A stretch of DNA of 64,000 nucleotides, from NCBI GenBank assembly GCA_027046245.1, contig JALTZJ010000026.1:1-64000 (forward strand), read 5' to 3'. The notes under the pieces were generated by a model, which made no database searches, was not told where the DNA came from, and worked only from the letters and a program-made list of their open reading frames with translations. Shown here piece after piece: positions 139 through 1,845 of the stretch. Every line of letters starts with the position of its first letter. Position 1 is the stretch's first letter. A program made the position numbers and the translations under genes. The stretch comes from Acidilobaceae archaeon (GTDB lineage Archaea; Thermoproteota; Thermoprotei_A; Sulfolobales; Acidilobaceae).

Positions 139-384
139 TTATCCACCGCCTCCCCTCTCCTCAACCTTACCCTCATTTACATATACTATCTTCTTGCAGT
201 CAAGCTGGCCTAGAACCTCCTGCAGTTTAGCCTCCTCCACTTTAAAGGTGTACAGGTACCGCTTAGTCCTAGCCTTGATCTTGACAGGTTCGCCACCCTT
301 TCTAGGCTTCTTCACACGGCACTCCTCAGCCCTCTTGACTATCTCCTTAAACCTCTCTAGATCCTTGACCTCCACAGGCATCAC
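139..384 (-). CDS. rpl38e: 50S ribosomal protein L38e
   Basis: MPVEVKDLERFKEIVKRAEECRVKK..TKRYLYTFKV matches the archaeal/eukaryal L38e pattern. Confidence 0.85.
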   Translation of the reverse strand: MMPVEVKDLERFKEIVKRAEECRVKKPRKGGEPVKIKARTKRYLYTFKVEEAKLQEVLGQLDCKKIVYVNEGKVEERGGGG

Positions 385-441: not shown

Positions 442-570
442 TCGGAGGAGGGGCCAAGGGCCGCTTGGGTGAGGACCACTTCTTCACTCCCCGGCAACGA
501 TGCAGCCCCCGGGGATCCGCTCCCAGGGTAGGGGCTTCCCCACAGCGGCCCTTCCAGCCACCTCCTCCGA
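442..570. ncRNA. candidate structured RNA with nested perfect helices (strand uncertain)
   Basis: TCGGAGGAGG (442-451) pairs with CCTCCTCCGA (561-570); AAGGGCCGCT (456-465) pairs with AGCGGCCCTT (544-553); internal hairpins TCCCCGG/CCGGGGA and GTGAGGA/TCTTCAC. Confidence 0.4.
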
Positions 571-669
571 GTAGTATTCTCTTGTCTCTCTCGGCGGCTT
601 CTTTAAGACGCCGCCGGGATAGCCTCTATCTACTTATGGCATACGGGGCTCGGGGGATGAAGAGTAGTC

Positions 670-1845
670 TTGGCTGAGCAGGTGAGGAGGCTGAGCTACG
701 CGGATCCCCGGGCTAGGCTCGGCCTATTACTCTACCTTGCAGGGCTTCTACTGGCAGTTTCCTCGTCCCTCTGGGTTCTTCACGACGCCTACACGGCTGC
801 ATCCTTTTACTCGGAGGAGGGCTCTGACTATGTGAGTGACGAGGTTTACTATGTTGATGTTGCCAGGAAGTATCTGAGGGAGCTTGCAGGAGTCGAGATG
901 GATTACTGGAGGGATAGCGGTAAGGTTAAGGAGGATTACTGGAACTTCGAGCACCCGCCGCTAGCAAAGTATATAATAGCGTTGTCTATGGTTATTTGCG
1001 GCGACGAGCCTCTGTGCTGGAGAGTTCCTAGCATGGCTATGGGATCGTTGATTCCCCTAGTGATTTATGCTGGCTTCGTGGCAGCATTCCGTAGCCCGGC
1101 CGCCAGTATAGCTGGCGGTCTAGCTGCGGCGGCTGCTGCTAGTGATGGCGTGTTGAGGGCCGCCTCCTCCGTGGCGATGCTAGACGTATACCAGGCGTTC
1201 TTCACGGCTGTGAGTATAGCGTTGGCTCTTAACGGTAGATACGCTCTGGCCAGTATAGCTGGCGGTCTAGCTGCGGCTAGCAAGATGAGTGGCGCCGCGG
1301 CTGTAACAGCTGCAGGACTACTCTGGGCCGCCTCGGAGTATAGGCTGTCTAGGAAGTTTGCTGCTTTGGCTGCAGCAGCCTCTCTAGGCCTACTGGTTTA
1401 CGTAGCTACTCATATTCCATTAGTCCTCGCGTTTGGCGTCGATAAACTTTTAGAGGAGACCATCAATGCGCTTCAGTGGCACACTACTAGTAGGCCAAGC
1501 GGGCCCCCCACCAGCACGCCTCTAGGATGGATACTTAACTCTAACACCTTCTACTATAGCTATGGGCCTCTACCATTGAGGGCTGCAACAAACACGCCCC
1601 TACACTTGGCAGCCCTAGCGGCGTCGATAACAGCTATTCTAGCCGAGATTGCAGCTGGCAGAAGACTATGGCCCGGCGCCGGCCACATATACTACTTCTC
1701 GCTCCTAGCCCTCTACGCCGCAGTAATGGCCATGGGTAATCAAACGCTATACAGCTTCTACGCCGTACAGCTGACCCCAGCAATGGCCGCTGTGGCGGGC
1801 GAGCTATTCCTGGCCGCCTCAGGTGTAAGGCCTTGGAGGAGATGA
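670..1845 (+). CDS. dolichyl-phosphate-mannose-protein mannosyltransferase-like (GT39/PMT) membrane protein
   Basis: Multi-TM protein with DEVYYVDVARKYL and EHPPLAKYI motifs; TTG start. Confidence 0.65.
   Translation: MAEQVRRLSYADPRARLGLLLYLAGLLLAVSSSLWVLHDAYTAASFYSEEGSDYVSDEVYYVDVARKYLRELAGVEMDYWRDSGKVKEDYWNFEHPPLAKYIIALSMVICGDEPLCWRVPSMAMGSLIPLVIYAGFVAAFRSPAASIAGGLAAAAAASDGVLRAASSVAMLDVYQAFFTAVSIALALNGRYALASIAGGLAAASKMSGAAAVTAAGLLWAASEYRLSRKFAALAAAASLGLLVYVATHIPLVLAFGVDKLLEETINALQWHTTSRPSGPPTSTPLGWILNSNTFYYSYGPLPLRAATNTPLHLAALAASITAILAEIAAGRRLWPGAGHIYYFSLLALYAAVMAMGNQTLYSFYAVQLTPAMAAVAGELFLAASGVRPWRR

Follow-up and report, generated by a model that had tools for sequence, protein, structure and literature searches.

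Heat-loving archaea are a well-known source of box C/D guide RNAs, whose boxes C and D stand close to the two ends and are joined by a terminal stem; the guide spacer upstream of box D or D' usually measures about 10-12 nt. The particles are built from L7Ae, bound at two kink-turns, together with Nop5 and fibrillarin, and their guides set the rRNA for 2'-O-methylation (PMC7994747, PMC4644070), the target nucleotide being chosen by the 'N plus five' rule (PMC4644070). Archaeal box C/D sRNAs are usually 50-70 nt long, which is a usual and not a defining length (PMC7994747); 489 of them have been catalogued in seven archaea, and a chaperone role has been proposed for such RNAs (PMC4644070). The double guide sR41 of Methanopyrus kandleri is predicted to target 16S positions G660 and G687 (pan-archaeal numbering; PMC4644070, Table 2). 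The same study implies that E. coli numbers are offset by 23-24 nt, which places both sites in or near helix 23.

Here, a window of 64,000 nt from an Acidilobaceae archaeon (the whole stretch of DNA analysed) was found to contain an element that is, with high confidence, the gene of a double-guide archaeal box C/D sRNA, read from the minus strand between about positions 570 and 442. As in the described sRNAs, C'/D' boxes and candidate C/D boxes, the latter drifted in the window, are combined with two guides to nearby rRNA sites, a 12-nt D spacer and N+5 pairing, and fibrillarin and Nop5 genes occur side by side in the host genome. The element differs from them in its size (about 100-130 nt versus 50-70), in its long, GC-rich terminal stem and drifted D box, in a D' spacer of 17 nt, and in having a stem-bearing kink-turn, not a k-loop, at C'/D'. 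The M. kandleri sR41, from another phylum, is likened to it by target positions only and serves as a lead.

The archaeal C/D families of Rfam (sR1-sR60, snoPyro_CD RF00095) have the same box layout and give weak sub-threshold matches in some relatives, but their guides are unlike, and none reached its gathering score on the element (best, Pab19 with 16.3 bits against a threshold of 55). Its size, stems, 17-nt D' spacer and drifted boxes may explain why these models fail to score. No Rfam family reached its threshold on the element, in which the initial annotation had seen no 5S, SRP or RNase P RNA landmarks, and ARAGORN found no tRNA in the window; these four identities were rejected.

Fold, conservation and coding strand

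The inverted repeats first noted in this region, TCGGAGGAGG (442-451) with CCTCCTCCGA (561-570), AAGGGCCGCT (456-465) with AGCGGCCCTT (544-553), and TCCCCGG (488-494) with CCGGGGA (509-515), are all present, and the strong folding attributed to them was borne out on either strand, positions 442-570 outfolding 200 of 200 dinucleotide shuffles (plus strand, -78.1 kcal/mol, z -3.57; minus strand, -84.0 kcal/mol, z -4.10). Since both strands outfold all shuffles, folding does not favour the plus strand, to which the RNA had been assigned. The hairpin GTGAGGA-CCACT-TCTTCAC, whose G-U pair had been the argument for that strand, consists of bases belonging to box C' and the D guide of a minus-strand RNA, and the argument falls with it.

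A nucleotide search of 60 relatives returned matches in seven other genomes, with different neighbours, and looking for orthologous intergenic regions by way of the L38e protein recovered only one distant locus. A covariance model derived from the relatives detected the element in 49 of 177 genomes of the order, and a second, sense-strand model detected the RNA or its D half in 98/229 genomes of the class. In the alignment, conservation is strong in AGGACCACnUCnnCA and GGGUAGGGGCnUC, two blocks that flank a GC-rich hairpin. This conservation supports the earlier proposal of a structured non-coding RNA gene between the L38e and PMT-like genes. A short conserved peptide (GEDHF..PR frame) was rejected on an in-frame stop in one relative (L008) and on the invariance of GAG GAC CAC at third positions.

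The identity of the RNA, which had been taken as unrecognised, was settled by the weaker matches (loci L048-L067, hereafter type 2), in which the boxes are legible on the minus sense. One of these, L051, reads GGG AUGAAGA GAUACCCCGGGAUCGAA CUGA UAG AUGAAGA UGUGGUCCUCUG CUGA CC on the minus sense, in the order box C, D' guide, D', C', D guide, D. Relatives from other families carry textbook C (RUGAUGA), D', C' and D (CUGA) boxes, and D follows C' at exactly 12 nt in all 16 of 16 type-2 loci, as it does in the window. The window and the other type-1 loci have C', the D guide GUGGUCCU and the position of D in common with type 2; the type-1 loci carry a D' guide beginning GCCCCUAC, and most also a D'-C' hairpin. 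An H/ACA sRNA, recognised by a hairpin with a pseudouridylation pocket, a kink-turn and a 3' ACA, was rejected, there being no ACA at a fixed place and the C/D layout accounting for all conserved blocks.

In one Sulfolobaceae-like family the RNA is a compact C/D sRNA of standard form, about 55 nt long, that keeps the same D guide, and its D' guide GGGAGUAC is antisense to GUACUCCC, the 16S stretch adjoining the helix 23 target (with the helix 23 sequence taken from other families). Genomes of another family (f7) carry two paralogous C/D sRNAs, one of each type (e.g., L027 and L048, both in genome G051), with identical D guides and different D' guides, both directed to 16S helix 23. The type-2 loci have a conserved D' guide, UACCCCGGGA, lying 5 nt from D', so that the N+5 base is unpaired with the helix 23 sequence seen; this guide may anchor the RNA rather than guide methylation.

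Anatomy of the minus-strand sRNA

Read on the minus strand, the element starts with the outer 5' arm of an extended terminal stem (TCGGAGGAGG, 570-561), delimited, like the outer 3' arm, from the minus-strand fold and sequence. The 5' arm of the terminal stem, AAGGGCCGC (553-545), adjoins box C and forms nine uninterrupted pairs with positions 464-456. U544 opens the kink-turn bulge beside box C, which reads GUGGGGA (543-537; RUGNNGA, for a consensus RUGAUGA) and aligns with the RUGAUGA of the relatives. The D' guide GCCCCUACCCUGGGAG (535-520) is antisense to 16S CUCCCGGGGUAGGGGC in a 16-bp duplex with one G-U pair. Box D', CGGA (519-516), occupies the pre-hairpin position of the CCGA, CUGA or UUGA of relatives, whose internal boxes read CYGA and RUGANGA. 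Beyond the D'-C' hairpin (UCCCCGG/CCGGGGA, 515-488) come box C', GUGAAGA (487-481), recognised from its sequence and from the relatives, and the 12-nt D guide AGUGGUCCUCAC (480-469), conserved through the order, part of which (GUGGUCCUC) is antisense to 16S GAGGACCAC. Box D, CCAA (468-465), has drifted from the consensus CUGA but keeps the standard spacing of 12 nt to C'; the 3' arm of the terminal stem, GCGGCCCUU (464-456), abuts it and pairs with 553-545, and the outer 3' arm, CCTCCTCCGA (451-442), closes the element. From box C to box D the RNA would measure about 79 nt, which grows to 98 nt once the 9-bp stem is counted and to 129 nt once the outer stem is. The terminal stem has 9 bp beside both boxes and continues with more pairs past an interior loop, for a total of roughly 25 bp.

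Both terminal boxes are drifted in the window, whereas those of relatives in other families are canonical; D boxes are also weak in congeners (CGGA, CUAA, CCGA, ACAA). With C, D' and D all drifted, the function of the terminal kink-turn in the window is uncertain. At the internal boxes, the D'-C' hairpin would make a stem-bearing kink-turn of the usual k-loop, and it matches the kink-turn geometry (GA, stem, 1 nt, RUG) in most type-1 loci. The hairpin is kept in 25 of 31 type-1 loci (at least 5 of 6 pairs, G-U counted half), a count biased towards finding one by the choice of the best 6-bp stem beside C'. The same hairpin positions hold C-G, G-C, A-U and U-A in different type-1 loci, and this variety of compensatory pairs is stronger evidence than the count. 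The terminal stems of the relatives contain, in the minus sense, 16 G-U versus 5 A-C cells, an excess that speaks modestly for minus as the RNA strand.

Genomic setting and candidate promoters

The gene of ribosomal protein L38e (139-384, minus strand; Pfam PF01781, E 4e-8) lies downstream of the sRNA on the same strand, and the other neighbour is a Pfam-confirmed PMT-like glycosyltransferase gene (670-1845, plus strand). The latter contains a direct repeat, GCCAGTATAGCTGGCGGTCTAGCTGCGGC, at about 1095-1125 and 1250-1280 (plus), so that ASIAGGLAAA is encoded twice. In relatives, the element's neighbours vary by family and include TatD-like, MoaB-like, nitrilase-like and S10-like genes, as judged from translations by eye.

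TATA-like boxes had been reported on both sides of the element, and such sequences do occur there. CTTAAAG (607-601, minus) precedes the minus-strand element by some 30-35 nt and is a candidate sRNA promoter, from which a start at about 575-580 would be expected; across 44 relative loci compared, AT content peaks 30-45 nt upstream of box C, consistent with TATA boxes in that position. The box on the other side, GGCTATAAG at 421-429, reads CTTATAG(CC) on the minus strand and is to be reassigned: it sits upstream of L38e, and CTTATAG (429-423, minus) is a candidate promoter of that gene, not of the sRNA.

A second C/D-like stretch (653-696, plus strand; AUGAAGA, CUGA, GUGAGGA, CUGA) overlaps the PMT-like gene at its TTG start. 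It scores 22.2 bits with Rfam sR30 (threshold 38), has only 2 nt from C' to the last CUGA, and its 9-nt D' guide found no convincing rRNA complement; it is probably a chance occurrence or a decayed sRNA.

Pairing with 16S helix 23 and possible functions

Comparison with 16S genes from the order revealed that the two conserved inter-box blocks are antisense to both sides of 16S helix 23. As the host's own 16S is absent from the assembly, complementarity was run on congeneric 16S, where helix 23 contains both blocks, UACUCCCGGGGUAGGGGCGAAAUCC...CCCGGGAGGACCACC, in reversed order relative to the element. The D' guide of the window and the 5' side of helix 23 make an unbroken run of 16 pairs, a length reached by 8 of 2000 dinucleotide shuffles, and the D guide makes 9 pairs with the 3' side. 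In both guides, with the register set by inspection, the N+5 pair is Watson-Crick: base 5 from D' pairs with C681 and base 5 from D with G713 (E. coli numbering, according to our own alignment). A literature search on the guide sequence found no match.

By analogy with described particles, the C/D and C'/D' boxes would each form a kink-turn and be bound by L7Ae, which would bring in Nop5 and fibrillarin. Helix 23 would then be paired on its 5' side by the D' guide (535-520) and on its 3' side by the D guide (480-469), and the 'N plus five' rule predicts 2'-O-methylation at C681 and G713. With one guide on each strand of the same helix, the sRNP could double as a folding chaperone for helix 23, which would fit the role proposed for such RNAs (PMC4644070). 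Given the deviant boxes and architecture, methylation by the D guide may be weak here.

The deviations also allow an account in which the same C/D-derived RNA lost efficient methylation in this genus, its drifted C/D boxes having given way to long ordinary helices, and acts as an antisense or chaperone RNA clamping both strands of helix 23. This is unlikely, since the 12-nt box spacing and the Watson-Crick N+5 pair of both window guides are kept, C' is canonical, and the genes for fibrillarin and Nop5 are present; it draws on the drifted D boxes of the genus (CCAA, CGGA, CUAA, ACAA), on terminal stems of at least 9 bp that adjoin the boxes both in the window and in some congeners, on the 16-bp D' duplex, and on a helix 23 complementarity that is conserved though the D' guide positions shift between lineages. 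A more specific proposal, a hyperstable clamp peculiar to the genus in which the stem of about 25 bp replaces the drifted boxes and the RNA chaperones helix 23 with little or no methylation, also rests on the stem-bearing C'/D' kink-turn and the 16-bp D' guide and is likewise regarded as improbable.

Readings outside the box C/D class fare far worse. That the element is a 5' leader acting in cis on the L38e mRNA is very unlikely: L38e does lie downstream on the same strand, but the element has other neighbours in relatives, and the TATA-like CTTATAG stands between the two. A riboswitch or leader was more generally rejected as neighbours change from family to family. A plus-strand structured RNA mimicking a circularly permuted helix 23, as a protein decoy or regulator, was our initial reading, the plus strand carrying AGGACCAC and GGGUAGGGGC as 16S does, in reversed order. 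It was dropped on the minus-strand C/D boxes of divergent relatives, which, with their exact spacers, would be needless in a plus-strand mimic; the blocks moreover pair with rRNA as C/D guides do, and the mimic is now highly improbable. The region is GC-rich, but a chance inverted repeat or terminator-like hairpin is scarcely credible with fold z-scores of -3.6 and -4.1 and a sequence conserved in many genomes.

All that sets the box C/D sRNA of the window apart is the length and high stability of its stems and the wear of its boxes; otherwise it is an RNA of a known kind. With it comes an order-wide family of C/D sRNAs that no Rfam family covers at threshold. In this family the D guide is fixed, and the D' guide moves along the other strand of the same rRNA helix, which offers a clear example for work on how guides evolve and on the suggested role as a chaperone. 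Strongly folded 'orphan' elements in hyperthermophiles can thus be extended-stem C/D sRNAs missed by standard C/D models.
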